From Mesorhizobium sp. M1D.F.Ca.ET.043.01.1.1 (GTDB lineage: Bacteria > Pseudomonadota > Alphaproteobacteria > Rhizobiales > Rhizobiaceae), in contig NZ_CP034444.1 in assembly GCF_003952385.1 (NCBI RefSeq), forward strand, positions 1,178,001 to 1,242,000: DNA of 64,000 nt, read 5' to 3'. Position numbers and translations under genes: made by a program. Shown here one piece after another: positions 589 through 50,174 of the stretch; positions within the stretch are counted from its first letter, which is position 1; each line of letters begins with the position of its first letter. The notes under the pieces were generated by a model. That model was not told the DNA's origin. It ran no database searches and was given only the letters and a program-made list of their open reading frames with translations.

Positions 589-2826
589 TCACCCTTCCCC
601 CGCCGTCCCATCGAGATACTGCGTCAGCGCGCAGACGAGGTGATAAAAGATGCTGGCCGGCACATCCGCCGCCAGTGAGCGGCCGCGCTCGTTGATGCGG
701 TCGATCCAGAGGCCGAGTGGCGCCGGGTCGATGTGCCAGCGGAACAGCCTGCCGACGCGTGCCTCGATCTCGGGCTTGAGATCGGGGCCACCCGAGCCGT
801 CGAGCGCGATCGCCGCCTTGACCGCCTCTGCTTGCGGCCAGCCGCGCGACACGCGGTCGAGCGGCAGTCCCTGGCGCGAGACGGCGCCGTAGGCAAGGCC
901 GGTGGCGCGATTCAGGCCGTTGGCAACGGCGGAGGCATAGAGCTTGCGGGCGAAGCCGGTGAGCTCGGCCTGGCCGCTGCGGGCGGCAAAATCGACAAGC
1001 AGCGAGGCCCATTCGAAATGGTGGCCGGGCTCGGTCCAGGCGCCCTTCTCGCCCGCCACGGGCCTCCAGCCGTCGTCGAAATACTCGCCCAGCGTCCAGC
1101 TTTCGGCGTCGAAGAAATGACTGCGAAAGAGGTCGATGACGCGCGCGGCGCGGCGCAGATAGGCGCGCTCGCCGGTGGCCTTGTGCCAGGCAAGGAACGC
1201 CTCGAGCAGATGCATGTGGGGGTTGGAGCGACGCTCGCCCGCGCCGTCGGAGGTTTCGAGGAAGCCGGTCATGCGGCTGTCCTCGAGATGAGTATCGAGA
1301 AAGGCGAAGGTCTCTTCGCCGAGCCGCAAGGCATCGGGATGACCCGACATATGAGCGTGCGCCAGCGCGAGCAGCACGCAGGAATGGTCGTAGGCGTCCT
1401 CTACCGGATCGGCGACCGAGCCGTCGATGTTGAGCGTGCGCACCCAGCCGCCTTTGCCGGTGCGACCTCGGCCAGTCATGAAGTCGATACCATGCGCGAT
1501 CAGCCGATCCGCCGGACCATCCCAGCCGCGCTCCTTGGCGACCGCGAAGGCATAGACCTGGCGCGCCTGCGTGCGCATGCGCTTGGGCTTCATCAGCGGC
1601 GTGGCGTCGAAGCCCAGCGCCTCATGGAAGCCGCCATGGCGTTCGTCGACGCCGATCGTCGACCACAGCGGAAGCGTCTCCTCGAACAGCCAGTGGCGCA
1701 CGCGCCGTCGCCAGGCGCCGCTCTCGATCACGCGGTCATGCGCCGGCGTGAACCTCGTCTCCAGCCGGCCGGATTTCTCGAGCTGCTCGACGATCTTCTT
1801 GACGTGCTGGCTGTGGCTGACCGGCGCGACGAAAGTGGCGTCGGCCGTCGAGACAATGGCGACGTCCTTCATGCCAATCGCCGAAAGCAGGCGGCCGTCG
1901 CCGCGGATATAGGAGTTCTCGCAGTCGATGGCGACGACATCGCCGAGGATGACATTGCCTTGCCTGTCGGACGGCCCGACATCGAGCAGCGACTGCCAGG
2001 AGCCGAGGTCGTTCCAGCGGAAGCCGGCCGGCACCATGGCGATGTCCCTGGCCCGCTCCATGATGGCGTAGTCGATCGAGGTCGACGGGATCGCCGAATA
2101 GAGCTCCAGCGGCATGTAGAGGCCGGAAAGATCGCTGGTCGCCGCGTGATAGGCCGCTTCCGTCGCCAGCCAGATATCGGGCGCAAAAGCCGCGAAGGCG
2201 TCGCGCATGGCGCCGGCGCGAAACAGGAAGATGCCGGTGTTCCAGTAGAAACTGCCGGCGTCGAGATAGGTTTGCGCCGTGGCGAGGTCGGGCTTCTCGA
2301 CGAAGCGCGAGACGTCGGACACGCCGTCCCGGTCGGCGGCGACCTCGATATAGCCGTAGCCCGTCTCGGGTTGCGTCGGCTTGATGCCGAACACCACCAG
2401 GCGGCCGGCGCCCGCCGCCTCGGCACCGGCCTCGATGCTCTGCCAGAACTGGCGCGCGGTGGAGATCTCGTGGTCGGAAGGCACCACCAGCACCAGTTCG
2501 TCGCCGAACTCGGAAAGCGTGCGCAGGCTGGCCAGCGCCACGGCAGCCGCGGTGTTGCGGCCGGTCGGTTCGAAGAGTGGACCGCCGCCGGCGAGGTCGA
2601 GGCCGGCAAGGTCGGCATGGACGCGCTCGGCGTGGCGCTCCGAAGCGATCAGAAAGATCGGCGTCTCGCCCTCGGGTCGCGCCGCCAGCCGGCGCAAGGT
2701 CTTGGCCAGCATCGAGCCATCGCCGGAGAGGTCATGGAACTGCTTGGGATTGTCCTCGCGCGACAGTGGCCATAGCCGCGAGCCGACGCCGCCGCTCATG
2801 ACGAAACTGACGATGCGCTGGCTCAT
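589..2826 (-). CDS. Fused mannose-1-phosphate guanylyltransferase / AGE-family epimerase-isomerase
   Basis: A 745-residue two-domain protein. Residues 1 to about 345 are a mannose-1-phosphate guanylyltransferase (GTP + Man-1-P to GDP-Man): nucleotidyltransferase signature GGVGSRLWPLSRED..PKQF at residues 12-30, then FVEKPDLATAQ and YWNTGIFLFRAG. Residues about 360-745 are an alpha6/alpha6-barrel of the N-acylglucosamine 2-epimerase (AGE) family, with blocks MRTQARQVYAFAVAKE, NPHMHLLEAFLAW and WTEPGHHFEWASLL. AGE-like barrels include mannose-6-phosphate isomerases and mannose/glucose epimerases, so this half may supply mannose-6-P. Classical bifunctional ManC enzymes carry a cupin isomerase instead. 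The phosphomannomutase at 4776-6296 would complete the route. Start ATG at 2826 gives the complete N-terminal motif. Confidence 0.88.
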   Translation of the reverse strand: MSQRIVSFVMSGGVGSRLWPLSREDNPKQFHDLSGDGSMLAKTLRRLAARPEGETPIFLIASERHAERVHADLAGLDLAGGGPLFEPTGRNTAAAVALASLRTLSEFGDELVLVVPSDHEISTARQFWQSIEAGAEAAGAGRLVVFGIKPTQPETGYGYIEVAADRDGVSDVSRFVEKPDLATAQTYLDAGSFYWNTGIFLFRAGAMRDAFAAFAPDIWLATEAAYHAATSDLSGLYMPLELYSAIPSTSIDYAIMERARDIAMVPAGFRWNDLGSWQSLLDVGPSDRQGNVILGDVVAIDCENSYIRGDGRLLSAIGMKDVAIVSTADATFVAPVSHSQHVKKIVEQLEKSGRLETRFTPAHDRVIESGAWRRRVRHWLFEETLPLWSTIGVDERHGGFHEALGFDATPLMKPKRMRTQARQVYAFAVAKERGWDGPADRLIAHGIDFMTGRGRTGKGGWVRTLNIDGSVADPVEDAYDHSCVLLALAHAHMSGHPDALRLGEETFAFLDTHLEDSRMTGFLETSDGAGERRSNPHMHLLEAFLAWHKATGERAYLRRAARVIDLFRSHFFDAESWTLGEYFDDGWRPVAGEKGAWTEPGHHFEWASLLVDFAARSGQAELTGFARKLYASAVANGLNRATGLAYGAVSRQGLPLDRVSRGWPQAEAVKAAIALDGSGGPDLKPEIEARVGRLFRWHIDPAPLGLWIDRINERGRSLAADVPASIFYHLVCALTQYLDGTAGEG

Positions 2827-4775: not shown

Positions 4776-6296
4776 CTAGAAAGTCTGGTTGTAGGCGCCG
4801 ACTTCCGGATTGCGGCGCAGCACGGCGTCGACGGCCTCGAACATCTTCCGGCGCCGGTCGGACGATACCGGGCTCTCCACCACCACGACAAGCTCCGGCT
4901 TGTTCGAGGAGGCGCGCACCAGGCCCCAGGTGGCGTCCTCGGCGACGACGCGCACGCCGTTGACGGTGATCAGCGCCGCGATCTTCTGGCCGGCGAAATC
5001 AGCAGCCTCGCGCCGCATCGCCTGGAAATCGGCGACGACGCGCTCGACCACGCCGTATTTCACCTCGTCGGCGCAGTGCGCCGACATGGTCGGCGTGCCG
5101 TAGGTCAGCGGCAGCGCGCGGTAGAGATCGGCCATCGATCGTCGCGGATTGCGGTCGAGCATCTGGCAGACGGCTATCGCGGTGATCAGCCCGTCGTCAT
5201 AGCCGCGGCCGATCGGCGGATTGAAGAAGAAATGACCGGACTTCTCGAAGCCCGCGGCGGCGCCGAGCTCGGCAACGCGGCGCTTGATGTAGGAGTGGCC
5301 GGTCTTCCAATAGTCGGTGGCGGCGCCGTTGGCCTTGAGCACATGATCGCTGGCGAACAGCCCGGTCGACTTGACGTCGACGACGAAGGTCGAGCTCGGG
5401 TGCAAACTGGAAATGTCACGCGCCAGCATGACGCCGACCTTGTCGGCGAAGATCTCGTTGCCCTCATTGTCGACGACGCCGCAGCGATCGCCGTCGCCGT
5501 CGAAACCCAATCCGACATCCGCGCCGGTCTCCAGCACCTTTTCACCGATGGCATGCAGCATCTGCATGTCCTCGGGATTCGGGTTGTAGCGCGGAAAGCC
5601 ATGGTCGAGCTCGACATCGAGCGGGATCACGTCACAGCCGATGCGCGCAAGCGCTTCCGGCGCGAAGGCGCCGGCCGTGCCGTTGCCGCAGGCGCACACC
5701 ACCTTGAGCTTGCGGGCGATGCGCTTGTCCCTGGTCAGATCGTCGAGATAGGTTTCGCGAAAGCCGGAGACGAACTCGTAGGCACCGCCGCCAACGACGT
5801 CGAAGTCGGTTTCGAGCACAATCTTCTTCAATGCGCTCATTTCTTCCGGGCCGAAGGTGAGCGGCCGCGCCGCGCCCATCTTGACGCCGGTCCAGCCATT
5901 CTCGTTGTGCGAGGCGGTGACCATGGCAACGGATGGCGTGTCCAGCGCGAACTGGGCGAAGTAGGCCATGGGCGATAGGGCCAGGCCGATATCCCTCACG
6001 CGTGCGCCCGCCGTCATCAGACCGGAGACAAGCGCCAGCTTGATCGACAGCGAATAGGAGCGGAAATCATGGCCGGTGACGATGTCCGGCCCGGCACCCA
6101 GGCGGCGGATCAGCGTGCCCAGACCCAAGCCGAGCGCCTGGACGCCGATCAAATTGAGCTCCGGCGCCTCCGTCGAGCCGGGATGGCCGAACCACCAGCG
6201 CGCGTCATATTCGCGAAAACCCGATGCCTTGATCAGCGCCGAGGTCTCGAATTCGAAGCTGTTGGGCCGGGCTTCGCCAACAATCGTCAGAGGCAA
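4776..6296 (-). CDS. Phosphomannomutase / phosphoglucomutase
   Basis: A 506-residue alpha-D-phosphohexomutase interconverting hexose-6-P and hexose-1-P. The phosphoserine loop reads TASHNENGWTGVKMG (about residues 149-163), the metal loop GFDGDGDRCGVV (about 264-275), and the sugar/phosphate-binding C-terminal loop is present near VRASSNKPELVVV. The start codon is TTG at 6296, nine bases after a GGAG, with no better ATG before the conserved FREYDARW block. Together with the guanylyltransferase/AGE fusion 2 kb downstream it would supply mannose-1-P for GDP-mannose, although PMM/PGM enzymes also feed glucose-1-P pathways. It converges on the NmrA-like gene with 15 bases between the stops. Confidence 0.93.
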   Translation of the reverse strand: MPLTIVGEARPNSFEFETSALIKASGFREYDARWWFGHPGSTEAPELNLIGVQALGLGLGTLIRRLGAGPDIVTGHDFRSYSLSIKLALVSGLMTAGARVRDIGLALSPMAYFAQFALDTPSVAMVTASHNENGWTGVKMGAARPLTFGPEEMSALKKIVLETDFDVVGGGAYEFVSGFRETYLDDLTRDKRIARKLKVVCACGNGTAGAFAPEALARIGCDVIPLDVELDHGFPRYNPNPEDMQMLHAIGEKVLETGADVGLGFDGDGDRCGVVDNEGNEIFADKVGVMLARDISSLHPSSTFVVDVKSTGLFASDHVLKANGAATDYWKTGHSYIKRRVAELGAAAGFEKSGHFFFNPPIGRGYDDGLITAIAVCQMLDRNPRRSMADLYRALPLTYGTPTMSAHCADEVKYGVVERVVADFQAMRREAADFAGQKIAALITVNGVRVVAEDATWGLVRASSNKPELVVVVESPVSSDRRRKMFEAVDAVLRRNPEVGAYNQTF

Positions 6297-6497: not shown

Positions 6498-6574
6498 CGG
6501 AGTGTAGCGCAGTCTGGTAGCGCACATCGTTCGGGACGATGGGGTCGCAGGTTCAAATCCTGCCACTCCGACCA
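6498..6574 (+). tRNA. tRNA-Pro (anticodon CGG)
   Basis: A 77-base cloverleaf with encoded CCA. The acceptor stem is CGGAGTG paired with CACTCCG, with the C1-G72 pair usual for tRNA-Pro, then discriminator A. The D arm is GCGC/GCGC. The anticodon stem CATCG/CGATG encloses loop TTCGGGA, anticodon CGG, reading CCG codons. The T arm contains GTTCAAATC. Confidence 0.97.
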
Positions 6575-6802: not shown

Positions 6803-8593
6803 CTACGGCGCCAGGAAGGACGGGCTTGTCGTCGCGCGCACCGGCTCCGAACGAGCGTGGCCGTCGCGCCGGATGCCGCCATGATCGATCAGGCGGGCGA
6901 TCACGGCGCGCCGTGCGTGATACGGCGTCAGCGTGTGGTCGGCATTCGGCAGCGAGACCCTGGTCACGCCGCGAATGCTGTCGAGCCGTTCTTCCTCCGC
7001 GCCAAAATGGCGGGCGATCTCCTTCAGGCTCAGATCCCCTTCCGAGGTCACCATGAGGACCCGCACGCCCCGGCCGCAAAGGTCGCGCATCCAGCGTTCC
7101 ACCTGCCGCCGTCCCACCAGAGCGGCCGGATGCAGCATCGACACCGTGGACTTGATCGCCTCCAGCCCGCGCCGGACAATCAGCCGGGCGTGGCGCGAAG
7201 CGATCCCCCGCCATGTCTGGGCTGCCGGCTGGCGGCCCTCCTCTATGACGGCCGCGTTCTGCCCGAGCACGGCCTTGGACGTCTCGTAAGTCTTCCAGAC
7301 CGCCATCTCCAGCGCGTAGGAACTGTTCCAGGCAAAGCAGAGCGGGTTGATCATAGTCAGCGTCCGCACCCGCCGATCGGCCCGTGCGGTGTGAAAAGCC
7401 TGGAACGCGCCGGCGCAGGTGCCGACCAGGCCGACAGCAGGATAGCCGGCTCGTTCCATCCAATCGATCGCGCGGCTGACATCATGGCGGGTACGCCCGT
7501 CATAGAGGAACAGGCGCCCTTCCTCGGTCTGATCGCTGAGGCCAAGTCCGGGCAGGTCGACGCGCAGCGAAGCGACCCCTTCCGCCGCCAGGTCCCGCGC
7601 CGCATCCACCGTGCCGCGCGCCCAGCCGACATGCGGCACGCCACCAGCATTGAGGAAGATCACCGGCTCGGCCGCGGCCTGACGTCCGTGCGGCCGGCAA
7701 AGCACGCCGCAGATCATCGGTTCCGGTCCGATCAGGACCGGCTTTTCCGTGTAGTGCGGACCATCCAGGATGTCCGAGGCAAAACGCGGCATGGCCTTTC
7801 CCGCGACCGCTTCGCCCGCATGATCGGTCATCCAGACCGCGCAGCGATCGAGAGCAGCGGCCGGAATCCGGTTGGCGGTCGGGTCGCACATCAACAGCGG
7901 ATAGCCATCGAACTCGGCCGTGGTGATGCCGGCCGCGCATGCCCCATCGCCACGAATTTCGTCGGCGGCAAGCGGCTTGCCGTTCGTAAGCACCAGCATC
8001 GGCACGGGTGGAAGGCTTGCCACGGCATGCCGCCAATCGAGCGCCGAAAGATCGGCCAGCGTCTCATGCGAAATCCGGAAACCGGCGGCCTCGCGCCCCT
8101 CGGTGAAAAGCCCTTCGCCCGCCGAACGGCTGGCCAGCGGCGCGTCGATCATGCGCGACATGGCCGTGATCTCGCGGACATAGGCCTTGCCGGAGGACGG
8201 CGGCGCGAGCAACGCAAGACCGGCAACGTCGTCGCGTCCGGCCGCCGCCAGCGGCGCCAGCAGGCCGCCGAGCCGAAAGCCGACCAAAATGACATCCGCC
8301 ACGCCGCAATCCTGCTTCAGCCGATCGATCGCTGCGCCGATACTCGCCGTCCACGCACGCACCTGGCCGGGCGTTGAATGATCCCCGGCGGCATTGCCGC
8401 AGCCGGGATAGTCAAACTGCAATACCGGCAGGTGGTTTTCGGCCAACTTGTCCGCCAGCAGCCTCAGGAAACGCCGGCTGCACAGGTCCTCGTGGCCATG
8501 CGCCCCGACGATGACGACGCCCCGGCCGCGCCGCCCGGCGCCCTTGCCGTCATGAAGCCAGCCGATGGTGCCGGCGAAGACTATCCCCCTCAT
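6803..8593 (-). CDS. Tandem alpha/beta-hydrolase-fold protein with substituted nucleophile elbows
   Basis: A 596-residue cytosolic protein with two alpha/beta-hydrolase domains. Domain 1 (about residues 1-280) carries FDYPGCGNA and the elbow GFRLGG, with Arg where GxSxG expects Ser. Domain 2 (about 290-580) carries [13 protein letters not shown], the elbow GTCAGA, with Cys at the nucleophile position, and [11 protein letters not shown], which supplies a plausible catalytic His. The GxRLG and GxC elbows recall the two exosortase-A-associated hydrolases as I remember them; that is a family-level impression only. ATG 8593 overlaps the GH2 stop (ATGA), implying translational coupling. It is the last gene of the carrier-protein operon. 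A role in releasing or transferring a thioester-bound group is an inference. Confidence 0.82.
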
Positions 8594-11121
8594 GCCATGC
8601 TCCTCGCCGGCTGCAATGCCCGCATGATCTCCGCCCCGATTTCTGAACTGTAGGCCGCGTCGCGATCGCCATTCAGCGCCGTCACGACACCGGCCGGCGT
8701 GGCCGAGGCCGGCCCGTCCAGGCAAATTTCCTTCACCGCGCCCGGCATCAGGTGGAAGCCGTTCTCGCGCGGGAAGAACAGCCCATCCTTGACGGCCACA
8801 TGATAGGCGGCGCGTCTGCAGGCGAGCTGCAAGCGCCAGCCGTCTTCTCCGCGCACCAACCGCGCCGACAGGCCGATATCGCGTCGCGCGGCCATGGCGC
8901 CGGGAAGCACATGAAAGGCTTCAGCCAGGATATCGCCGTCGTGGCCTTCCAGCCGCGCCACGGTTACCTCGTGGCCCGCCGGGCCGAAGCGATAGGCATA
9001 GGACACGTCGAAGAAGGCGCCGAGCAGCGAGAACGCCGACAGGGACTGCGCCCCGCGCGCCTGCAGCGTGACCGGCCGGCGCGCCGCCACCACCGGGGTG
9101 GCGCCATCGCGCAGGCAGACAAGCGACAGCGTCGCCTCGACGGCCTTTGGCCCGTCGTTGACAAGATGGACGCCCAGCCCGTTGACGCCCTCGTCGCTCA
9201 GCGCCAGCCTGAGCGGCGCGAAGGCTCGTCTCAGCGCATGCCAGACCGATTTCGTCCGTCCGGTGGAATCGACGATGCCCCACCCTGCCCCCGGGCGCAG
9301 ATCCTTCCAGAAGAACAGCAGCGCACCCGCCGTCGACGAGGCCGGTCTGCGCCATTCGTCGATCGTGCGCTCGACGACCTCGGCGGTGACGGCGCGCGAG
9401 AGGTCAAGGTAGCGCGCCGGATCCTCCATGCGCAGGCGACGCGCATCGACGCCGAACAGCATTTCGAGATAATGCTCGCGCACGTCTTCGAAATCCCACG
9501 ACGCGCCCGCGTCGCGCGGCACGCCGGCTTTCCAGCGCGGATCGTGGCCTGGCGGAACAGGCAGATGCTCGTCCAGCGTCGCCTGTTCCGGCACGTTGGC
9601 GAAGGCGAGGCACTCGCTGGCGAAACGCACCCCCGCGCGGCGCGCGTCCTCCAGCGGCCGGCAATAGGCGCCGACGCCATAATAGTGTGTCGGACCGCCA
9701 TCCGCGGCGAAGGGCAGGCTGCCGCCGGAGGGCGACGAGGACACCAGCGCGAGATCAGGCAGGATCGCCTGCGCGGCCGGACGCACGACCGCATCGAACC
9801 AGGGCGTCGGATCCATCGCTGCCGGCATACCGAGCATCGCGGCCTGCTGCGCCACCTCGCTGCCGCCGCACAGCACCGCCAGCGACGGCGAATGCCGAAG
9901 CCGCTTCAGCAGGTTTTCCACCTCGCGCGACAGCGCCGCCCGCCAGGCCTCGTCTTTCGCCGGATAGTCGAAATTGGCGAGCATCAGGTCCTGCCAGACG
10001 AAAATGCCCATCTCGTCGCACAACTCGTGGAAGGCATCGCCCTCGTAGGCGAAGGTGCCGCCGACCCGCAGCATGTTGACGCCGGCCCGGCGCGCGAGGT
10101 CGAGATCGGGCTCGATTTCAGCCCGCCCGCATGGCAGCCGCACAGGATCGGAGGGCGTCCAGACCGCGCCGCGGCAGAACACCGGCACGCCGTTGACGAC
10201 CAGGCGGAAATCGCGTCCGTCGGCGCCGCGATCGATCTCGATGCGGCGGAACCCGACCCGGCCCAGCCGGCTGCGCACCGTGCCGAGTGTCGCGGTCACT
10301 TCGTGCAGCGCCGGCTCGCCATGACTGTTCGGCCACCATGGGGCGACATCGGCAATGGCCAATTCCGCCGTCAGCCGGGTAGGTGTCTCGACCTTGAGGC
10401 GCGCGCGCACTCCAGCGCAGCTGACATGCGCCGTTTCGGCACCGTCGAAGGGTTCAGCAAGGGTGATCGCAACGGCAAGATGCCCGGTGGCGCCGTCGAG
10501 CCCGGCGCGCATGTCGGCATCGAGGATGCGCTGCCCGCCATTCTCGCGGATCAACTTGACGGGACGCCACGGCCCGACGACATCGAAATTCGGACACCAG
10601 CCCGGCATATGGCCGATCAAGGTCGTGCGCACCAGCCGCAGGCGCTGATCGTCGATCATGCGCGGACGCCAGCGGGCGCGCGGACCGGTCGCCGTTTCCA
10701 GATGGCGGTCGAGACTGCGAAAGACGATGGCAAGCCGCTCGCCACCTGCAAGGGTCACTGCGGCCTCATGGCACTCGAACATCGAGGTCGAGGCGAGCAG
10801 CAGCCGGTCGTCAAGCCAGACCTCGGCGATGGTCGCCAGACCCTCGAACACCAGCCGCACCGGACCGATCGCCGCGAGCCTGAGGCAGTACCAGACATCG
10901 CGGTCGTGCAGCGGGGCGGGCTGCTTGCGGTCCCAGCGGCCATGCTTTTCCAGCGTGGCGGCCGCCGTGCCGGGACAGGCCGCGTCCAGCCATTCGGCGC
11001 TTGCGTCGATATCATGCGGGCAAGCCCAGGCGCCGGCCGCCGAGACGGCCATCCGCCAGCCCTGGTCCAGCAATCCGGCTGTGCCGACGATCGACACAGC
11101 GGCGTCCATTCGCACACCCAT
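8590..11121 (-). CDS. Glycoside hydrolase family 2, beta-mannosidase-like
   Basis: An 843-residue protein with the GH2 domain order: N-terminal sugar-binding jelly roll (RDVWYCLRL...[14 protein letters not shown]), immunoglobulin-like sandwich, TIM barrel ([32 protein letters not shown]), then C-terminal beta domains. The catalytic acid/base region reads [10 protein letters not shown]: the Glu is kept, but the usual Asn before it (GNNE in beta-mannosidases) is Ser. The likely nucleophile is the Glu in RFASECLAF. No signal peptide, so probably cytosolic. ATG 11121 is chosen; TTG 11127 and ATG 11109 are alternatives. Its place inside an aminoacyl-carrier-protein operon suggests a glycosylated product or substrate rather than simple mannan breakdown (inference). 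Confidence 0.85.
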
Positions 11122-11145
11122 GCCCAAATGCGCCTCGGCCCGTCC

Positions 11146-12144
11146 CTAGGCCGCCTTGGAGGCGACGCCCGCCATGCGTGCCTCCAGCACGTCCATCACC
11201 GTTTCGTAGGCCTGCGCCATCGGCGTGATTGCCTCGGCCAAGCCGCCGAAACGCTGCCGCGCCATCGCGCGGGCGAGCTTGAACTGCATGACCTTGGCGC
11301 CGTCGGCTATATCGCCGGCGGCTTGCGCCGCCTCCGCGAGGCAAGTTTCGCCATGCTGCCCCAGCCATTCGAGATGGCTGCCGAGGAGTTCGAAATTCGC
11401 GCCGACCTGTCGCAGCGTGTTGAAGGCATAGGTATGGAAATAGTCAGGCGAGCACGTTGCCAGCGTTTCGGCGTGTCGGCCGAACGCGGCCGCATAGGCG
11501 CCGAGCGGATTGCGCTTCGGCCGCCGCTCGAGGTGATGCGCGAGCAGCACCGCCGCGGTTCCGACCGCATCGCGGGCCGGGCGCGTGGCGTCGAGCTTCA
11601 CGAATTCCGCGTAAGGAAAGAGCGGCAGGCCGCCCGCCGGCACATCGTCCCATTGGCCGAAGATGCCGTCATAGTCCTCGCCCTCGAGCGCGAAATAGCC
11701 GTCATTGTGGAAGTAGCGCATCTGCCGTCCCTCGGGATCGAGCGCGTTGATGCCGACCGTGGTCTTGGAATGCCCGCTGCGATAGGTGATGCCTTTGGTG
11801 TCGGGCAGGTGGAAGGCGTCGACCTCGACCAGCGGCAGCCGGCCGAGTTCGACCTGCGCCAGCACATGCGTCTCCAGCCGGTCGAAGATCGCCAGTTCCT
11901 GGATATCCAGCCCGGCCAGCCGCTGCAGGTCGGCGGTCGGGAACTTGAAGAACGTGAACTGATCGCCCTCGAAATCCTGCGCCACGGTGAAGCCGAGCGC
12001 CGCGACCGGGTCGTGGCCGGTCGCGTGCAGGACCTCGATCAGGAGGTCGACATAGCAGTTGGTCTGCGGCCAGCGCCTTTGCGGATCGTGCAGCCAATGC
12101 GGCCGGTAGCAGGCCGGATCAAGGCCGGCGATAGCTGCGCGCAT
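11146..12144 (-). CDS. DUF1839 family protein
   Basis: A 332-residue protein I recognise as the uncharacterised DUF1839 family. Conserved-looking blocks are WPQTNCYVDLLIEVLHATG (about residues 25-43), DFEGDQFTFFKFP, YRSGHSKTTVGIN, YFHNDGYFALEGEDYDGIF and AYAFNTLRQVGANFELLGSHLEWL. No signal peptide or membrane segment. ATG 12144 starts one base after the ligase stop, so the two are co-translated. Known DUF1839 genes occur next to amino acid:[carrier protein] ligases, so a step acting on the aminoacyl-carrier product is the best guess; no catalytic motif is recognisable by eye. A Cys in TNCYVD and the His in RSGHSK are candidates for mutation. Confidence 0.85.
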   Translation of the reverse strand: MRAAIAGLDPACYRPHWLHDPQRRWPQTNCYVDLLIEVLHATGHDPVAALGFTVAQDFEGDQFTFFKFPTADLQRLAGLDIQELAIFDRLETHVLAQVELGRLPLVEVDAFHLPDTKGITYRSGHSKTTVGINALDPEGRQMRYFHNDGYFALEGEDYDGIFGQWDDVPAGGLPLFPYAEFVKLDATRPARDAVGTAAVLLAHHLERRPKRNPLGAYAAAFGRHAETLATCSPDYFHTYAFNTLRQVGANFELLGSHLEWLGQHGETCLAEAAQAAGDIADGAKVMQFKLARAMARQRFGGLAEAITPMAQAYETVMDVLEARMAGVASKAA

Positions 12145-12145
12145 G

Positions 12146-13069
12146 TCACACGCTCCACAGCACGTCGCGGACCGTCGCAGGCCAGGCCTCCGGGTCGGGA
12201 CCATGATGGCGGAACAGGGCCAGCGCCACACGCTCCAGCCCGAAGCCGATGCAGGCCGAATGACAGAACTCGCCGTCCGCGAACTTCAGGCCCCAGGTCC
12301 GGCCAAAATGGTCCTGGTGATAGTTGAAGCTCAAGCAGGCGGTCGGCTTCTCGATACTGGTCACCGGAATCAGCAGCTCGAATTTCAGGCCCTGATCTCT
12401 CTGGTTGTTGGCCATCATCTTGCCGCCGCGGCCGAAGAACGGATCGTTGGCGAGATCGACCTCGCAGGGCAGATCGAGCGACTCGATCATCGCCTTGCCG
12501 CGTTTCAGCCAGCTTTCGCGGAACGAGTGCACCTGCTCGGCTGTGCCGATCTTGACGAACTCGCGCATGCGGAAGAGCTGCATGCGCGCCGGGTCTTTCG
12601 ACGGCTCGTGGCGGAAGCAATAGGAGGAGAGCTCGAAAAGCAGGCCGTGCGCCGGCACCGGGCCGCGCGCAGCGATGGTGGGGTAGAGCGGATAGCACGC
12701 GGCCGGCGTCAGCGCGAGGTCCGTCGCCTTCTGCAGCTCCGTCCAGTCCCCGCCATCGGCCATCATGCCGAGCAGCTGCGCATGCTCCCGCTCGCCGCCC
12801 ATGAAGGAATGCACACAGCCGGCAAGCTGCGGAAAGCTCTTCATGTAGCCGCTCTTCTCCAGCGTCGCGCGGCTCATGCCTGGCGGAAAGTGGATGCGGG
12901 TGGCCTTGTCGGGCGCGCCGAGCCGCGTGACGAGACGCTCGAACCGCTCGATCACTTCCTCGAATGCGCCCGAACGGCCATAGAGGCCGTCGATGCCGGA
13001 TTCGAACAGGATGCCGTTCTCGAACAGGCTGTCGAGCAGCGACTTGGAGTCGAATGTCTTGGCGTCCAT
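12146..13069 (-). CDS. Amino acid:[carrier protein] ligase (SerRS-like class II synthetase homologue)
   Basis: A 307-residue catalytic-core homologue of atypical seryl-tRNA synthetase, without a tRNA-binding arm. Characterised family members from Bradyrhizobium and Agrobacterium activate glycine or alanine with ATP and load it on a partner carrier protein instead of tRNA. Seen: a candidate zinc Cys in [11 protein letters not shown], the motif-2 stretch [20 protein letters not shown], and motif 3 in [12 protein letters not shown] with its invariant Arg. A second candidate zinc Cys lies in [13 protein letters not shown] 13069 follows the dehydrogenase stop by one base. The ACP at 14281-14526 is the obvious acceptor. 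Gly versus Ala specificity cannot be assigned. Confidence 0.93.
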
Positions 13070-13070
13070 C

Positions 13071-14276
13071 TCAGCTCCCCAGGCCGGTGTCGAAGCGGCT
13101 CATCAGCATGAGCGTCGCGGTATTGGAAAGGATGCGGTCGTTCGAGATCATCACCGGTGCCGAGGTCACATCGCGCAAGTGCCGGCCGACGCTGAACGGC
13201 GTGCCGTTCTTGTAGCCAAGGATGCCGTTGACCAGCATGGCCAGACGCACCACGGCGCCGGCCTTCTCGCTGGCCGCAACCTTCAGCGCGTTGATCTCGG
13301 CGGCGAAGCCGATCGAAGACAACGCGTCATCGTCGCCCGCGGCCGCTTCGAAGCGGTGGATGGCGGCCGTCAGGTGCCCTTTCATCTCCTGCAAAAGCGC
13401 TGCCGCCTCGGCCAGCCTCAGCGCCCCGGGAGGCATGGCGTCGGGCTGCTTGCGTGCCGCCGCCTTGACGAAGGCCTGCGCCCGATTGAAGGCGTCGGCG
13501 GCGATGCCGAACCAGGTCGCCGCCCAGAAGATGTGTGAGCTGGCCAGCATCGACTGCGCCGCGATCTCGGAAAACGGCTTCGGGAATATCTGTCTCGCAT
13601 CACCCGTGGCGACGAGATGAAAGCCGTCGGAGCAGGTGCCGCGCATGCCGAGCGTGTCCCACACCGACGTGCGTTCCAGGGTGCGGTCGCCATCGGCCGG
13701 TATCACCACCATCACTTGATCGGAGCTTGCCGCGTCGGGCGCGCGCCGCGCCGTGGCGAGGATGGCGTCGGCATAGTTGCCGTAGGAGATGACGGTGGCT
13801 TCCTTGGTCAGCGTGAAGCGACCGCCGGCGACCTCGACCGCGCAGATCGAATTGCGCAGATTGCCGCCGATGCCGGCCTCGGTCGTCGCCGAAGCCATCA
13901 GCAACTGCTCGTCGGCGATGCGCCGCATATAGGCGCGGTGCCAGTCGCTGGCGCCGCCATGCGTGACGAAGCTCGACGTCTTGATCTGGTGCATGGCATA
14001 GATCATCGCGCTCGAGCCGCAGGCCTGACCGAGCTGGACGATGAGGTCGGCGATCCGCATCGTGCCGAGCCCCTCGCCGCCATGCTCGACCGGGATCGCC
14101 ACGCCGAGCAGGCGCTCGCGCTTCAGCGCCTCGATCGTCTCTGTCGGGAAACGGCCTTCCTTGTCGACGGCATCGGCATGGCTGGCGGCGATCTCGGCGA
14201 CCCGCCGCATGCGTTCGGTTGCTGCTTCCGGCGCCTCCGCGACCGAAGCGGCCTCGATTTTTCTCAACACGTTCAT
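13071..14276 (-). CDS. Acyl-CoA dehydrogenase-family flavoprotein
   Basis: A 401-residue protein with the acyl-CoA dehydrogenase fold: N-terminal helical domain ([16 protein letters not shown], about residues 57-72), the middle beta domain with the flavin/substrate stretch [13 protein letters not shown] (about 125-137) and [14 protein letters not shown], and the C-terminal four-helix bundle. In this fold FAD oxidises a thioester-bound substrate or, in variants, oxygenates it. Lying directly between an ACP gene (4 bases) and an aminoacyl-ACP ligase gene (1 base), it may act on the aminoacyl-S-ACP, as prolyl-S-carrier-protein dehydrogenases do in pyrrole pathways. That substrate is an inference. 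The C-terminal region reads [18 protein letters not shown], as in dibenzothiophene-desulfurisation-type relatives. Confidence 0.9.
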
Positions 14277-14280
14277 GGCG

Positions 14281-14526
14281 CTACGCCGCCCTGCGCGTCA
14301 GCTGCGAAACGGCGTCCGCGATGTTGATGAGCGAAGAAAAGGTGCGCCGCGTCAGCATCGTCTCGGGGAATTCGATGTCGAACTCCTCTTCGAGAGCCAG
14401 CATCATCTGCACCGAGGCGAAAGAGGTCAGCCCCGCGTCGTAGAGATTGGCATCGTCGGCGAGCGCGCCGAAATTCAGCGGAATCATCGGATGCTGCTCG
14501 AGCAGCGAGCGAATCTGGTCGATCAT
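14281..14526 (-). CDS. Acyl carrier protein (aminoacyl carrier)
   Basis: An 81-residue four-helix carrier protein. The phosphopantetheine site lies in LYDAGLTSFASVQMM, with Ser in GLTSFAS replacing the classical DSL; the acidic helix that follows (ALEEEFDIEFPE) is typical of ACPs. ATG 14526 (MIDQIRSLLEQHP) is preferred to an upstream in-frame start because the added 14 residues look non-coding. It is the first gene of the six-gene operon and the likely acceptor for the ligase two genes on. The missing Asp before Ser resembles carriers that partner the SerRS-like ligases. No phosphopantetheinyl transferase lies in the window, so the housekeeping enzyme would be needed. Confidence 0.92.
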   Translation of the reverse strand: MIDQIRSLLEQHPMIPLNFGALADDANLYDAGLTSFASVQMMLALEEEFDIEFPETMLTRRTFSSLINIADAVSQLTRRAA

Positions 14527-42703: not shown

Positions 42704-43846
42704 ATGCAGTTCATCGATCTTGGCGCGCAGCGCGAACGAATCCGCGACCGGCTGAAGGCCGCGATCGACAAGGTGGTCGAGGACGGCCGTTACATCCTCG
42801 GGCCCCAGGTCACCGAATTCGAGAACAAGCTCGCGGCTTACGTCGGCGTCAAGCATGTGGTGGCCTGCGCCAACGGCACCGATGCGCTGCTTCTGCCGCT
42901 GTTTGCCGCCGGCATCGGCCCGGGCGACGCCGTGTTCGTGCCGAGCTTCACCTTCGCCGCGACGGCCGAAGTGGTGGCGCTCGCCAAGGCCGAGCCGGTC
43001 TTCGTCGACGTCGATCCCGACACCTACAATATCGACATCGCCAGCCTTGAGGCGGCGATCGCCATGATCAAGAAGGAAGGCCGGCTGAAGCCGAAGGCGA
43101 TCATCCCGGTCGACCTGTTCGGGCTCTCCGCCGACTACGAGGCGATCATGGCGATCGCCAAGCGCGAGAACCTGCTGGTGATCGAGGATGCCGCCCAGTC
43201 GATGGGCGGCTCGGCCGATGGCACGATGTGCGGCGCCTTCGGCCATGTCGGCTCGACCAGCTTCTATCCGGCGAAGCCGCTCGGCTGCTACGGCGACGGC
43301 GGCGCGATGTTCACCAATGACGCAGCGCTGGCCGACAAGCTGCGCTCCTTCGCCTTCCACGGCAAGGGCGAGACCCAGTACGACAACATCCGCGTCGGCA
43401 TCAATTCGCGCCTCGACACGCTGCAGGCGGCGATCCTGATCGAGAAGCTTGCCATCCTCGAAGAGGAGATGATGGCGCGGCAAGCGGTCGCCGACCGCTA
43501 TGCCAAAGGACTTGGCGACATCGTCAAGGCATCGCGCAATCTGGGCCACGGCCGCTCGGCCTGGGCGCAGTACGCCATCGAGACGCCGAAGCGCGACGGG
43601 CTGAAGGCCCATCTCGGCGAAAAAGGTATCCCGTCGGTCATCTATTATGTGAAGCCGCTGCACGAGCAGATCGCCTATCGCGACTACCCGCGCGCGCCGA
43701 CCGGTCTTGCCGTTTCGGAAAAGCTGCCGAAGCAGATCCTCTGCCTTCCCATGCACGCCTATCTCAGCGAAGCCGACCAAGACAAGATCATCGAGACGAT
43801 CCGCAATTATATTGGCTCGAACTCGGCGCATGTCGCGGCGGCCTGA
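42704..43846 (+). CDS. DegT/DnrJ/EryC1/StrS-family sugar aminotransferase
   Basis: A 380-residue PLP-dependent aminotransferase of nucleotide-sugar pathways. N-terminal MQFIDLGAQRERIRDRLKAA, VVACANGTDALLLPLFAAGIGPGD, the cofactor-binding VIEDAAQSMGGSADG (about residues 161-175), and the Schiff-base Lys in SFYPAKPLGCYGDGGAMFT (about 186-204). It would convert a keto-sugar nucleotide to an amino sugar, probably for the surface polysaccharide made by the genes from 47.9 kb on. The 250-base gap before it holds no recognisable feature; its ribosome-binding site is weak. Which keto-sugar it uses cannot be told. Confidence 0.92.
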   Translation: MQFIDLGAQRERIRDRLKAAIDKVVEDGRYILGPQVTEFENKLAAYVGVKHVVACANGTDALLLPLFAAGIGPGDAVFVPSFTFAATAEVVALAKAEPVFVDVDPDTYNIDIASLEAAIAMIKKEGRLKPKAIIPVDLFGLSADYEAIMAIAKRENLLVIEDAAQSMGGSADGTMCGAFGHVGSTSFYPAKPLGCYGDGGAMFTNDAALADKLRSFAFHGKGETQYDNIRVGINSRLDTLQAAILIEKLAILEEEMMARQAVADRYAKGLGDIVKASRNLGHGRSAWAQYAIETPKRDGLKAHLGEKGIPSVIYYVKPLHEQIAYRDYPRAPTGLAVSEKLPKQILCLPMHAYLSEADQDKIIETIRNYIGSNSAHVAAA

Positions 43847-43857
43847 GCATCTCAGGC
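43841..43857. terminator. Hairpin spanning the convergent stops of the aminotransferase and cysQ
   Basis: A perfect 7-bp stem GCCTGAG (43841-43847) with CTCAGGC (43851-43857), loop CAT, covering both stop codons, which are five bases apart. It could act on both transcripts. There is no T tract. Confidence 0.4.
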
Positions 43858-44670
43858 AGGCGCGCTCTTCCCACTCGCAATGAAATGCGGATTGGCGAAA
43901 TCGCTGTCGTTCGCCTGGTTGCGCTTGCCGTAGACGAGCGGCTCGCCGTCCAGCGTGCGCGTCATTCCGCCGGCGGCGCGCAGCACGGCGTCGCCGGCCG
44001 CCGTGTCCCATTCCATGGTGCGGCCGAAGCGCGGGTAGACGTCGGCCTCGGCGGCGGCGAGCAGGCAGAATTTCAGCGAAGAGCCGATCGAGACGATCTC
44101 GGCGGCGCCGAGGTCGCGGATGAAGGCCTCGGTCTCCGGCGTGTTGTGCGAGCGGCTGGCGACGACGGCGAGCGGCGAGCCCCCTGCACGCACCGTGATG
44201 GGCCGACGTTCGGTGATGCGAAACTCAGCGTCGACCTCGATCGCTTCCGCCTTGCCCGGCCGGCCGGAGAAGAAACGTCCGGTGCAGGGCGCAAAGACGA
44301 CGCCGACTTCCGGCACGCCGTGGCGCACCAGCGCGATGTTGACGGTGAAATCGGTGCGGCGATTGACGAATTCCTTGGTGCCGTCGAGCGGATCGATGAG
44401 GAAGAAGGCGGCGTCGAGGTCGGGCGCGGCGATGCCCGCCGCAACCTCCTCCTCGGCCACGCACGGGATGTCCGGATAAGCGGCGCGCAGGCCGGCCAGG
44501 ATGATCTTCTCGCTTTCGCGGTCAGCCTCCGTCACCGGCGAAGAGTCGGACTTCTCATCGACGGCGCAGCCTTCGTGGAAGACGCGCATCACCTCGCGGC
44601 CGGCCTCGAGCGCCAGACGCTCGAAGACGGCGAGCATCGTTTCGTCGTCAGATACCGCCGCCATTGTCAT
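43852..44670 (-). CDS. cysQ: 3'(2'),5'-bisphosphate nucleotidase
   Basis: A 272-residue inositol-monophosphatase-fold enzyme that hydrolyses 3'-phosphoadenosine 5'-phosphate (PAP), the by-product of PAPS-dependent sulfation. Metal-binding motifs are present: EEEVAAG (about residues 74-80 region), [23 protein letters not shown] and [15 protein letters not shown] near the C-terminus. ATG 44670 lies within the last codons of cysNC, so it is co-translated with it. Together with cysD/cysNC it forms a PAPS supply and PAP clean-up unit. Confidence 0.92.
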
Positions 44671-46585
44671 ACTGCTCTTCGGCAATGTCGCGCTCGGTCA
44701 GCCAGTGTTCCAGGGCTTCCGCCATCTCCTGCGGGCTCCTGCCGAGAGTCTTGAGGTGGATTTCGGGATTCTCCGGCGCCTCATAGGGAGAATCGACGCC
44801 GGTGAAGTTCTTGATCTCGCCGCTCAGGGCGCGCGCGTAAAGGCCCTTCGGGTCGCGGCGGGCGCATTCCTCGAAGGGCGTGTCGACGAACACCTCGACG
44901 AATTCGCCCTCGCCCATCAACTCGCGCGCCATGCGCCGCTCGGCGCTGAAGGGCGAGATGAAGGAGACGATGACGATCAGGCCGGCATCGGCCATCAGCT
45001 TGGCCACTTCGGCGACGCGGCGGATGTTCTCGACGCGATCCGCGTCGGTGAAGCCGAGATCGCGATTGAGGCCGTGGCGGACATTGTCGCCGTCGAGGAT
45101 GTAGGTGTGGCGCCCGGACGCGAACAGCTTCCTTTCGAAGAGATTCGCGATGGTCGACTTGCCCGAGCCGGACAGGCCGGTGAACCAGAACACCGCCGGG
45201 CGCTGGTTCTTCAGGTCGGAGCGGCCGCGCTTGCCGACATCGAGCGATTGCCAGTGGATGTTTTCGGCTCGGCGCAGCGAATGCAGGATCATGCCGGCGC
45301 CGACGGTGGCGTTGCTGATGCGATCTATCAGGATGAAGGCGCCGGTCGTGCGGTTCTCGGCGAAGGGATCGAAGGCGATCGGCGCCCGGGTCGACAGGTT
45401 GCAGACGCCGACCTCGTTGAGGTCGAGCGACTTCGCCGCCTCATGCGCGAAATCGTTGACGTTGACGCGGTATTTGAGCTCGGTGACGGTGGCGCTGACC
45501 TGATCGGTCTCGGTGCGCAGGATATAGGAGCGGCCGGGCAGCAGCGCCTGCTCGTCGAACCAGACGATGTTGGCGGCGAACTGGTCGGCGACCTGCGGAC
45601 GTGCGGCCGGCGACACCAGCATGTTGCCGCGCGACACCTCGACCTCGTCCTCGAGGACGAGTGTGATGGCTTGGCCGGCGACGGCCTGCTCGAGATCGCC
45701 GCCATGCGCGACAATGCGCCTGACGCGCGAGGCCCTGCCCGACTTGGCGACCACGACCTCGTCGCCCTGCGAAACCGTGCCCGAAGCGATGGTGCCGGCA
45801 AAACCGCGGAAGTCGAGGTTCGGCCGGTTCACATATTGGACCGGAAAGCGGAACGGCAGCTCGACGGCCGCCTCATCGACGGACACGATTTCCAGATGCT
45901 CGATCAGCGACGGTCCGGAATACCAGGGCGAGCGCTCGGAACGGCTGGTGACGTTGTCGCCGAAGCGCGCCGACATCGGGATCGGAACGATGCTCGCGAA
46001 GCCCAGCCCCTTCGCGAAGTCGCCGTAGTCCGCCACGATCTTGTCGAACACGGTCTTGTCGAAGCCGACGAGGTCGATCTTGTTGACGGCAAGCACGATG
46101 TGGCGGATGCCGAGCAGCGAGGCGATGATGGAATGGCGCCGGGTCTGGCGCAGCACGCCCTGGCGCGCATCGATCAGCACGATGGCGAGATCGGCGGTCG
46201 AGGCGCCCGTCGCCATGTTGCGCGTGTACTGCTCGTGGCCGGGCGTGTCGGCGACGATGAACTTGCGCTTCGGCGTGGCGAAGAAGCGGTAGGCGACGTC
46301 GATGGTGATGCCCTGCTCGCGCTCGGCCTCCAGCCCGTCGACCAGCAGCGCGAAGTCGATGTCGTCGCCGGTGGTGCCATGCTTGCGAGAGTCATTCTCC
46401 AGCGCGGCGAGCTGATCCTCGAAAATCTGCTTGGTGTCGGAAAGCAGCCGGCCGATCAGCGTCGACTTGCCGTCGTCGACCGAACCGCAGGTGAGGAAGC
46501 GCAGCAGCGACTTCTTCTCCTGCGAGGCCATGTAGTCGCGGATCGAGTCTGTAGGGGCGAGGCTCTTGGCCATGATGTGGCGCAT
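44648..46585 (-). CDS. cysNC: Bifunctional sulfate adenylyltransferase subunit 1 / adenylylsulfate kinase
   Basis: A 645-residue NodQ-like fusion. The CysN GTPase (about residues 1-450) has [18 protein letters not shown] (G1), [12 protein letters not shown] (G3) and NKIDLVGF (G4). The CysC APS kinase (about 460-645) has the P-loop [15 protein letters not shown] and [15 protein letters not shown]. It makes APS with CysD, then PAPS. ATG 46585 is two bases after the cysD stop; ATG 46573 is an alternative. A nod context is absent here, so the name cysNC is used rather than nodQ. Confidence 0.95.
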
Positions 46586-46587
46586 CG

Positions 46588-47493
46588 TCAGAAATACCCC
46601 TCGCGCTTCTTCTTTTCCATGGACCCTGCCTCGTCGCGGTCGATGAGGCGGCCGTGGCGTTCGGAGGTGCGGGCGGTCAGCATCTCGCCGACGATGGCCT
46701 CAAGCGTGTCGGCGTCCGATTCGATGGCGCCCGTCAGCGGATAGCAGCCCAGCGTGCGGAAGCGTACGAGACGGTTCTCGACCGTCTCGCCGGGGCGAAG
46801 CTGCATGCGGTCATCGTCCTTCATGATCAGCATGCCGTCGCGTTCGACAACCGGGCGCTCCTTGGCGAAATAGAGCGGCACGATCGGGATGTTCTCCTGC
46901 AGGATATACTGCCAGATGTCGAGCTCGGTCCAGTTGGACAGCGGAAAGACGCGGATCGATTCACCCGGCGCGATGCGGGTATTGAAGATCTTCCACATTT
47001 CCGGCCGCTGGTTCTTCGGGTCCCAGGCGTGCTGCGCATTGCGGAAGGAAAAGATGCGCTCCTTGGCGCGCGACTTCTCCTCGTCGCGGCGGGCGCCGCC
47101 GAAGGCGGCGTCGAAGCCGTATTTGTCGAGCGCCTGGCGCAGCGCAACCGTCTTCATCACATGGGTATGGGTATTCGAGCCGTGATCGAACGGGTTGATG
47201 CCGTCGCGTACGCCGTCTTCGTTGACATGGACGAGCAGGTCGAAGCCGAGCTTCTGCGCCATCTGATCGCGAAAGGCGATCATTTCGCGAAACTTCCAGG
47301 TCGTGTCGACATGCAGGAAGGGAAACGGCGGCTTGGCCGGATAAAAGGCCTTCATCGCCAGATGCATCAGCACGGAGGAATCCTTGCCGACCGAGTAGAG
47401 CATCACAGGCTTGGAGAAAGAGGCCGCGACCTCACGGAAGATGTGGATGGATTCGGCCTCGAGCCGCTGCAGGTGGGTGAGCGCGATATTCAT
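46588..47493 (-). CDS. cysD: Sulfate adenylyltransferase subunit 2
   Basis: A 301-residue ATP-pyrophosphatase-fold subunit that forms APS from ATP and sulfate, driven by the CysN GTPase. N-terminal [20 protein letters not shown]-loop [17 protein letters not shown] (about residues 36-52), [19 protein letters not shown] and the C-terminal [25 protein letters not shown] are all diagnostic. First gene of cysD-cysNC-cysQ. No PAPS or APS reductase gene lies in the window. Confidence 0.96.
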
Positions 47494-47889
47494 GGACTAT
47501 TGAGCGTTCTTTCGTGCCGGCCAGGCCTTGCAGCAGCGGTTGGCGCGGTTTCCTAAAACAGCCCGTCAAGCCCTGGACACTTCTCGCGGGCGTTCTAGCA
47601 GATCGCCATCGCCCATAACAATGCAAGACCCGCGCCGGGCATAGCGGTTTGGGAATGAATTTTCCAAGTGAGCCTGATAAGTCGGAAAATTCTCCCAGAC
47701 AAGCTGAGCAATTGAAAGGGGCCGAACAACCTGTTTGCTTCGATCGGCTAGATTGACTTCCAGGAGCTTTCGTCCAGACCGCCGATTTTTGGCAGACATC
47801 CGTCGGTCGCCCTATCGGAGACCGGAGCCAGCCGCTATACCGGCGCGGGAACGGGGCGAGGCGCGGTAGAACGGGATCGGTCGGGGCAG
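47494..47889. other. 396-base gap between cysD and the O-antigen ligase-like gene, with a perfect inverted repeat
   Basis: A region of lower GC content between divergent genes, holding the promoters of both. GAATTTTCC (47657-47665) and GGAAAATTC (47684-47692) are perfect 9-bp arms 18 bases apart, extended by GGGA/TCCC. This is a candidate operator. A 77-codon minus-strand frame at 47566-47799 has no recognisable protein and was not called. Confidence 0.5.
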
Positions 47890-49236: not shown

Positions 49237-50174
49237 AGGTTCTGGTTACCGGCGCGACTGGTTTCATCGGGCGGCGGGTCGTCGGCAGGCTGCAGGAGGG
49301 CGGATTTGACGTGCGGGTCGCCTCGCGCCAGCCGGAAAGGCTGCCGGCCGCGGACGATGCCGTCCGGCTGCCCGGCGTCGATGCCGCCGACGAAGCCTTC
49401 CTGGCGCTGATGCGCGATGTGACGCATGTCGTTCACTGCGGGGCGCTCAACAACGACCGTCGTGCCAGCGACGCCGACTACCAGGCCGTCAACGTAACGC
49501 TGACCGGGCGGCTGGCCAAGGCGGCAGCAGCCTGTGCCGGCGGGCGTTTTGTCTACCTCTCCTCGATCCGCGCCGTCGCCGGTCCCCGCTTCAGCGGCAC
49601 GATCAGCGAAACAACGCCCCCTGACCCGCAATGCGCTTATGGCCGCTCCAAGGGGGAAGGCGAGGTCAGGATGCTCGAAGCCTATGCCTCGGCGGGTCGG
49701 GCTGGAGCGACGGCGCTGCGCCTGCCGCCGGTTTATGGGGAAGGCATGAAGGGAAACCTGCGCGAGCTGATGCGGGTCGCCGCCACCGCCTTGCCGCTGC
49801 CGGCAGGCCTTCTCACGGGAGTTCGCTCGCTGCTGTCGCAGGACGCGGTGGCCGGCGCCGTGGCGCATCTTTTGACCCGCCCCACGCCGCCGCGCCCGAC
49901 CTATGTCTTGGCCGATGCTTCCCCAGTTGCGATGTCCGAGGTCATCACGGCGTTCCGGCGCGGATACGGCCTTCCAGCCCGGTTTCTTGCCGTGCCGGCC
50001 TGGCCGTTCCGGCGGGTGGCCATGCTGCTTGGCAGACAAGCATCGTACGAAGCCTGGATGGCGACACAGATTTGTGACCCGTCACCGCTGATTTCAGAGG
50101 GCTGGATGCCCGAGGCCGATACGCTCGGCCGGCTCGAGGAACTGGCGCGACAGAAGGCCGGTCAGGCCCGGTAG
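49233..50174 (+). CDS. NAD-dependent sugar epimerase/dehydratase
   Basis: A 313-residue extended SDR. N-terminal MKVLVTGATGFIGRRVVGRL is the dinucleotide motif; FVYLSSIRAVAG holds the active-site Ser region and YGRSKGEGEVRM the YxxxK catalytic pair (about residues 135-146). Such enzymes act on nucleotide-activated sugars; the substrate is not evident. ATG 49233 overlaps the upstream stop, so it is coupled to the ligase-like gene. Its 3' end overlaps the convergent sugar transferase gene by 13 bases. Confidence 0.88.
   Translation: MKVLVTGATGFIGRRVVGRLQEGGFDVRVASRQPERLPAADDAVRLPGVDAADEAFLALMRDVTHVVHCGALNNDRRASDADYQAVNVTLTGRLAKAAAACAGGRFVYLSSIRAVAGPRFSGTISETTPPDPQCAYGRSKGEGEVRMLEAYASAGRAGATALRLPPVYGEGMKGNLRELMRVAATALPLPAGLLTGVRSLLSQDAVAGAVAHLLTRPTPPRPTYVLADASPVAMSEVITAFRRGYGLPARFLAVPAWPFRRVAMLLGRQASYEAWMATQICDPSPLISEGWMPEADTLGRLEELARQKAGQAR

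Follow-up and report, generated by a model that had tools for sequence, protein, structure and literature searches.

A conserved six-gene operon of Mesorhizobium that may add a carrier protein-bound amino acid to a surface polysaccharide

Ligases resembling seryl-tRNA synthetase (SerRS) have been known since 2010 to aminoacylate carrier proteins. We describe here a six-gene operon, conserved among soil and plant-associated bacteria, that encodes such a ligase together with an acyl carrier protein (ACP) and a protein of family DUF1839. It lies in a 64,000-nucleotide stretch of DNA from Mesorhizobium sp. M1D.F.Ca.ET.043.01.1.1, and this whole stretch is referred to below as the window. According to a 2022 review, the amino acid:[carrier protein] ligases load Ala, Gly or Ser (PMC9437257), and the use made of the amino acid is left open or predicted there and in an earlier paper (PMC2922099). 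A 2010 note in proof to the earlier paper predicted that the neighbourhood of Atu2574 ligates an amino acid to the amino group of a cell-surface sugar, and proposed the DUF1839 protein as the ligase of the aminoacyl-sugar amide (PMC2922099). Because an aminoacyl-sugar product was predicted at that time, the core of our hypothesis is not new. The original prediction for this DNA, made from its sequence alone, had called the product not known, which still holds, although such a product had already been proposed (PMC2922099).

The neighbourhood described in that paper shares with ours an ACP, a redox enzyme, a conserved unknown protein, a glycosidase and saccharide genes. It differs in that the redox enzyme is called a Rossmann-fold protein, with monooxygenation suggested; the part of the paper that deals with the neighbourhood assigns the unknown protein no fold and is silent on a hydrolase and on any co-occurrence test. 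New here are the fold match of DUF1839, the loss of the dehydrogenase base, the addition of a Cys-type hydrolase to the set, tests of co-occurrence, and a DUF1839-free use of the ligase-flavoprotein pair. Also closely comparable are CcbD and LmbD, which couple an amino acid to an aminosugar by a carrier protein-dependent amide; CcbD joins carrier-bound proline to the aminosugar via a Cys-linked intermediate (PMC12945683). In 2015 their fold was called seemingly unique to lincosamides (PMC4351081).

The six genes are all on the minus strand, running from 14526 to 6803, with intergenic gaps of 4, 1, 1, 24 and -4 bases:

14281..14526, minus strand, acyl/aminoacyl carrier protein (ACP), 81 residues (PF00550, 1.9e-8; NF005480, 93.8 bits against a cut-off of 72)
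13071..14276, minus strand, flavoprotein of acyl-CoA dehydrogenase (ACAD) fold without the canonical catalytic Glu, 401 residues (PF02771/PF00441, Acyl-CoA_dh)
12146..13069, minus strand, SerRS-like amino acid:[carrier protein] ligase, 307 residues (NF005479, 489.9 bits; PDB 4h2w, 3.5e-103)
11146..12144, minus strand, DUF1839 protein, papain-like with a CcbD-type fold, 332 residues (PF08893, 4.4e-121, 404 bits)
8590..11121, minus strand, GH2 glycosidase, beta-mannosidase-like (GH2 domains; best PDB relatives are beta-mannosidases)
6803..8593, minus strand, tandem alpha/beta-hydrolase (two abhydrolase stretches)

The coordinates and gaps of the original prediction were reproduced to the base, and Pfam/NF profile matches and PDB relatives bore out its family names for all six. 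The same profile scans found no transporter among the six proteins, in agreement with what had been noted. Start codons were picked by spacing and alignment. The spacing fits the single coupled transcript that had been claimed, and it is from the spacing that we infer this shared transcript.

We propose, with a probability of roughly 0.55, that the operon is a carrier-protein device that adds an oxidised amino acid to a cell-surface (exo)polysaccharide or to its lipid-linked precursor. The SerRS-like ligase would activate a small amino acid and load it onto the phosphopantetheine of the ACP. The flavoprotein would oxidise the tethered amino acid, oxygenation, perhaps at the amine, being likelier than alpha,beta-dehydrogenation. 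The aminoacyl group would then move onto Cys30 of DUF1839 and from there to a sugar amine, in a ping-pong reaction as for CcbD. In this the operon would resemble a lincosamide synthetase that works on exopolysaccharide. The cytoplasmic GH2 may trim or recycle glycan precursors, and the Cys-type hydrolase may re-transfer or free acyl groups within the polysaccharide pathway. The original prediction had put forward that an amino acid is activated, tethered, oxidised and passed to a glycoconjugate; this is still the best reading, and the association of the families, the CcbD-type fold of DUF1839 and the polysaccharide neighbours give it more support than it had; the oxidation, and its place ahead of transfer, is a step that we infer, like every catalytic step in the scheme.

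The gene set, its conservation, the fold similarity and the genomic context were computed directly. Among 297 genomes sampled from the order, DUF1839 was present in 49, including that of the window, and all 49 had a ligase over the cut-off of the family profile; the ligase family itself was found in 70, of which 64 exceeded the cut-off. Of the remaining 48 DUF1839 loci we retrieved 40. In all 40 the genes for ACP, flavoprotein, ligase, DUF1839 and GH2 (hereafter the cassette) had the same order and strand, one of them (L048) with an extra gene-sized gap ahead of GH2. This five-gene order is not due to chance, and because it recurs in every one of these loci the gene set is not accidental. A second set, of named loci, comprised the 80 best among 562 confirmed DUF1839 matches, and 72 of them had exactly these five genes. 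The exceptions were one locus with split matches, two without ACP (the fetched stretch begins inside the flavoprotein), four without GH2 and one without ligase. Among the four, L090 ends soon past DUF1839, and L120, L134 and L141, on contigs that continue further, carry GH2 elsewhere in the genome, with the hydrolase directly after it in all three. Outside the order, DUF1839 was found in 15 of 349 genomes sampled from the phylum; a single family, f104, which lies outside the class sample, accounts for four of these 15, and a second DUF1839 gene is present in two of those four.

The hydrolase is less fixed in place. It lay inside the fetched stretch in 26 of the 40 order loci and in 55 of the 80 named loci. 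We searched for it in 45 genomes: the 14 in which the cassette had no neighbouring hydrolase, and 31 without DUF1839, chosen from the search negatives (15 with ligase, 16 without). A full-length match elsewhere in the genome was found in 14 of 14 cassette genomes (E < 1e-140; two of the matches have one in-frame stop) and in 0 of the 31 genomes without DUF1839, and a weak abhydrolase match was present in all 45. The best of the DUF1839-free genomes (G253) gave two partial matches (3.9e-40 and 1.3e-30), and the next gave 2.5e-10. The GH2 subfamily was likewise found in 14 of 14 against 0 of 31, with weaker matches in two of the 31 (3.9e-55 and 1.1e-48). In G246, where this GH2 is in two halves, the unlinked hydrolase copy adjoins a GH2 half severed by the contig end. 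The hydrolase belongs to the set despite changing place. Consistent association of the six families across relatives had been set beforehand as a test of the prediction, and it held in both sets of loci and in the hydrolase comparison.

In an alignment of 36 DUF1839 sequences C30, D33, H125, K127, T128, T129 and H146 are kept, with C30 and H146 invariant (36/36). DUF1839 has been placed among papain-like enzymes with a C-(T/S)-H triad in which His and Thr/Ser are switched, and it was suggested that it might act on cell-wall glycans in an acyl-CoA-dependent manner (PMC10318531). A sequence search against PDB gave nothing significant (best E 0.42 and 1.1). An AlphaFold2 model (pLDDT 92.6), compared with PDB by Foldseek, matched 18 chains at E <= 1e-3: three of AziU3/U2, seven of CcbD and eight of CtaG, with TM 0.53-0.66 and identity of 11-17%; the next match was at 0.047. 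DUF1839 resembles in its fold and in a Cys nucleophile the lincosamide condensing enzymes CcbD and LmbD, as well as CtaG, AziU3 and BtrH; its context is polysaccharide rather than antibiotic. From this model and by analogy we predict that DUF1839 is an aminoacyl-carrier protein:amine amide synthase; a carrier-protein donor and an aminosugar acceptor are features of CcbD and are what we propose for DUF1839. The literature naming DUF1839 that we found does not mention CcbD, LmbD, CtaG or AziU3.

The ligase is a member by score of NF005479, "amino acid--[acyl-carrier-protein] ligase", its 489.9 bits comparing with a curated cut-off of 357. C125, E170 and C273, which we take to be the zinc ligands of an atypical SerRS-type core, are kept in 64 of 64 ligases. 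The Bradyrhizobium enzymes (Bll0957; PDB 3mey, 4h2w) share NF005479, the stand-alone catalytic core and the C/E/C residues. In a midpoint-rooted tree whose bootstrap had not settled, the 41 cassette ligases and four of f104 form one group (98/100), a clade separate from the ligases of ligase-only genomes. In the same tree the ligase of the window is placed within a ten-member group that also contains families f16, f27 and f50 (100/99), away from its own genus and family, which suggests gene transfer. Four genomes of the order (L176-L179) have a distant ligase relative of about 30% identity, below the cut-off. The attachment serine of the ACP, S35 in the motif GLTSFAS, is kept in at least 40 of 41 sequences.

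The flavoprotein had been called acyl-CoA dehydrogenase-like, which stands as a family match and not as an activity. The catalytic Glu of acyl-CoA dehydrogenases presumably sits in the YEGT region or on helix G. At the YEGT column (8i4p) the window's protein has I377, and Ile is found there in 60 of 60 sequences, 45 from genomes with DUF1839 and 15 from genomes without it. No acid was found at the helix-G position either, where residue 247 is S, A, C or T in the 60 sequences. We rejected acyl-CoA dehydrogenase as the activity since the base is missing in all 60; dehydrogenation of this type is unlikely because the Glu column holds an invariant Ile. H96, S164, H248, W251 and W255 are invariant (60/60). 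The lower matches of the profile in PDB include DnmZ (2.2e-18), nitrososynthase 3mxl (1.4e-16), DszC (2.5e-12) and two FAD-dependent oxidoreductases, 3m9v and 4kcf (3e-17), which we take to be KijD3. The protein is probably an oxygenase or oxidase, and our guess at the atom oxidised is perhaps the amine.

The acid/base and nucleophile of GH2, E419 and E500, align with those of beta-mannosidases and are kept in at least 40 of 41 sequences. None of 41 GH2 N-termini (starts chosen by script) resembled a signal peptide by eye. In the hydrolase the N-terminal half lacks a nucleophile, its position being taken by Gly or Arg (27/27; GFRLGG in the window), and the C-terminal half has a Cys nucleophile with conserved Asp and His (27/27; GTCAGA in the window). 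The closest described proteins are the exosortase A-associated hydrolases: the C-half resembles hydrolase 1 (TIGR03100) and the N-half hydrolase 2 (TIGR03101), and a Cys nucleophile is shared. With 73 against a cut-off of 168.45 for the former profile and 72.7 against 202.75 for the latter, the window's protein scores as a non-member of both. Among the seven best TIGR03100 loci, six over the cut-off and one just under, the motif was readable in four (L186, L187, L188 and L192), and all four have Cys at the nucleophile place (GxCD). L192 is a 620-residue open frame with GCRFGA in its N-half, where Arg stands as in the window's hydrolase, and GLCDGA in its C-half; apparently it holds exosortase-type hydrolases 2 and 1 in one chain, like the protein described here. 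A literature search found no link between exosortase A hydrolases and carriers.

Recurrent neighbours of the 40 order loci include GT4 and GT2 glycosyltransferases, Wzx-like proteins, an initiating sugar transferase, GNVR (Wzz-type) proteins and GH5. Neighbour families were annotated from one representative per cluster, and at least one of the nine recurrent polysaccharide clusters counted was present near 29 of the 40 cassettes. For 20 loci, one per genus, we compared the five nearest flanking genes with five genes elsewhere on the same contig. The 100 flanking genes included glycosyltransferase (GT) group 1 (7), Polysacc_synt (3), GT2 (2), GNVR (2) and GH5 (2); polysaccharide families were absent from the 25 commonest families of the 100 control genes, among which singleton families mostly do not appear. 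Of 77 neighbours picked around ten unlinked hydrolase genes in 8 genomes we annotated all but a single long one, 76 in all, and found WecG (7), GT group 1 (4), GH5 (3), GINT1_N (3), Acyl_transf_3 (3), Polysacc_synt (3), Wzz (3), Wzy_C (2) and GT2 (2). By BLAST label, a member of the nine clusters was near eight of the ten (L261-L265, L267, L268 and L270, not L266 or L269). In L182, a locus of f104, a sugar transferase gene comes first, then the five cassette genes from ACP to GH2, and after them a gene that looks regulator-like by eye, another DUF1839 gene on the opposite strand, ManC, Wzc and the hydrolase.

Other features were seen beside cassettes. The two DUF1839 genes of the L182 stretch (6901-7878 and 11735-12952) differ from each other, and the stretch has one ligase. 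Nine loci of family f41 (L036-L041, L043-L045) have alcohol dehydrogenase-like (weak), PTPS, GT4 and methyltransferase-like (weak) genes in the same order, PTPS being absent from the gene calls of L040; this is possibly a pterin glycoside cluster. In L031, L032, L034 and L035 the cassette adjoins class II tRNA synthetase-like and lysine-2,3-aminomutase-like genes, and three of these loci also have an EF-P gene.

In the window, the surroundings of the operon are as follows:

6498..6574, plus strand, tRNA-Pro(CGG), bounding the operon downstream
4779..6296, minus strand, phosphoglucomutase/phosphomannomutase (PMM/PGM), downstream and outside the operon
592..2826, minus strand, ManC-type guanylyltransferase fused to a GlcNAc 2-epimerase-family domain, outside the operon (PF00483, PF22640, PF07221)
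42704-43843, sugar aminotransferase
50165-50698, initiating sugar transferase
51785-53908, Polysacc_synt_2 dehydratase
54864-56255, C-methyltransferase
56647-57759, GDP_Man_Dehyd-type dehydratase

By its domains, the ManC-type fusion is assigned to sugar-nucleotide supply. The surface-polysaccharide genes at 42704..57759 are about 28-43 kb from the operon. The genome (7.13 Mb, a single contig) has one DUF1839 gene and, elsewhere, a WecG-type and a GINT1_N gene; its nearest named relatives among the best 80 of 562 confirmed matches are Mesorhizobium, with DUF1839 identity of 92-95%. A mannose-containing glycoconjugate had been suggested as acceptor, and the ManC-like gene in the window hints at it, but few other loci do: ManC-like genes (E <= 1e-15) were found in at least 5 of 126 other DUF1839 loci (L031-L150, L180-L185) and PGM in at least one, beside the cassette of L046. 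These counts are lower bounds because many stretches extend no more than 10 kb from DUF1839; neither gene was found in 20 control regions. We rejected a mannose-specific acceptor as a general rule on these counts.

Several observations weigh against a polysaccharide-directed device. The window operon lies outside any polysaccharide cluster, such genes being 28 kb or more away, and none of the nine recurrent polysaccharide clusters was found in the fetched stretch of 11 of the 40 loci. DUF1839 has C-T/S-H where CcbD has Cys-His-Glu, and its identity to the fold matches is low (11-17%); because the triad differs, we propose that it works like a CcbD-type amide synthase and do not count it as a member. 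True dehydrogenases lead the flavoprotein matches in PDB (best 4.7e-24), ahead of the monooxygenases, and a search confined to the operon found no flavin reductase. The cassette of Roseibium denhamense (L111) has no ligase, and no ligase match was found elsewhere in that assembly. Finally, 15 of the 64 ligase genomes (L161-L175, all of the order) have ligase and flavoprotein without DUF1839 or this GH2 subfamily, so the first two steps must serve another end there. In these 15 stretches, 13 of which have a divergently placed ACP gene, DUF1839, GH2 and hydrolase were all absent, and they represent a second, DUF1839-free use of the activation pair; the five of f35 (L161-L165) have Bll0957-like ligases, with a near-identical N-terminal stretch. 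L166 and L170 have, close by, genes for an AMP-ligase, an SDR-like protein and a Wzx- or Wzz-type protein.

If the product were instead soluble, the six enzymes would make a diffusible lincosamide-like aminoacyl-sugar or an N-oxygenated amino-acid metabolite, and polysaccharide genes would adjoin because both use the same sugar nucleotides. The closest folds to DUF1839, those of CcbD, CtaG and AziU3, do come from small-molecule pathways, all six proteins look cytoplasmic by eye, and the position of the window operon and the 11 loci lacking recurrent polysaccharide families would suit this explanation. We consider it unlikely, while giving it serious weight, in view of the polysaccharide genes that stand beside eight of ten hydrolases even when these are unlinked from the cassette, and of the absence of a transporter among the six proteins. 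The AlmEFG system of Vibrio and Dlt, as described, also place an amino acid on a carrier protein and then on the cell surface, and a device of that kind would esterify a hydroxyl of lipid A or polysaccharide, with the Cys-type hydrolase and not DUF1839 as acyltransferase. Those systems use an adenylation domain, whereas the ligase here is of the class II aminoacyl-tRNA synthetase type, and the six proteins show no AlmG- or DltB-type Pfam match. The Cys, Asp and His conserved in the C-half of the hydrolase, and the Cys that exosortase A hydrolase 1 shares in the four copies read, would be expected of such an acyltransferase, and AlmEFG is known to move glycine from a carrier protein to lipid A (PMC4790380). 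We judge esterification improbable: the constant neighbour of ligase and ACP is DUF1839, not the hydrolase, and no lipid A family occurs among the 20 annotated neighbour families or the 25 commonest flank families.

Breakdown of an imported glycoconjugate by GH2 and hydrolase, with the carrier branch storing or detoxifying the freed amino acid, seems very improbable to us. In its favour, both catalytic Glu of GH2 are retained, and peptide-type ABC transporter-like genes (by eye) lie upstream in the window; the cluster with the ATPase of this transporter recurs in 5 of 41 loci, although the commonness of such ATPases may be the whole reason. Against it, glycosyltransferases of biosynthesis and Wzx-type genes are found as neighbours more often, and ATP-dependent loading would be odd for catabolism.

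Returning to a carrier-protein device acting on polysaccharide, a narrower version of it for rhizobial and related bacteria, which we put forward tentatively and think doubtful as a whole, has the aaRS-type ligase charging the carrier protein, a monooxygenase N-oxygenating the amino acid tethered there, and an enzyme of CcbD fold linking this through an amide to an amino sugar in the repeat unit, to give an exopolysaccharide with N-oxygenated aminoacyl groups. We know of no description of such a polysaccharide. With its CcbD-type enzyme, the six-gene set points to a definite donor, a transferase and a class of acceptors, which makes assays with purified proteins possible. If our proposal is true, a biochemical activity known since 2010 would gain a destination, the CcbD/LmbD fold would be seen to occur in a glycan context across many Rhizobiales-type genomes, and there would be an added route to carbohydrate-amino acid amides.

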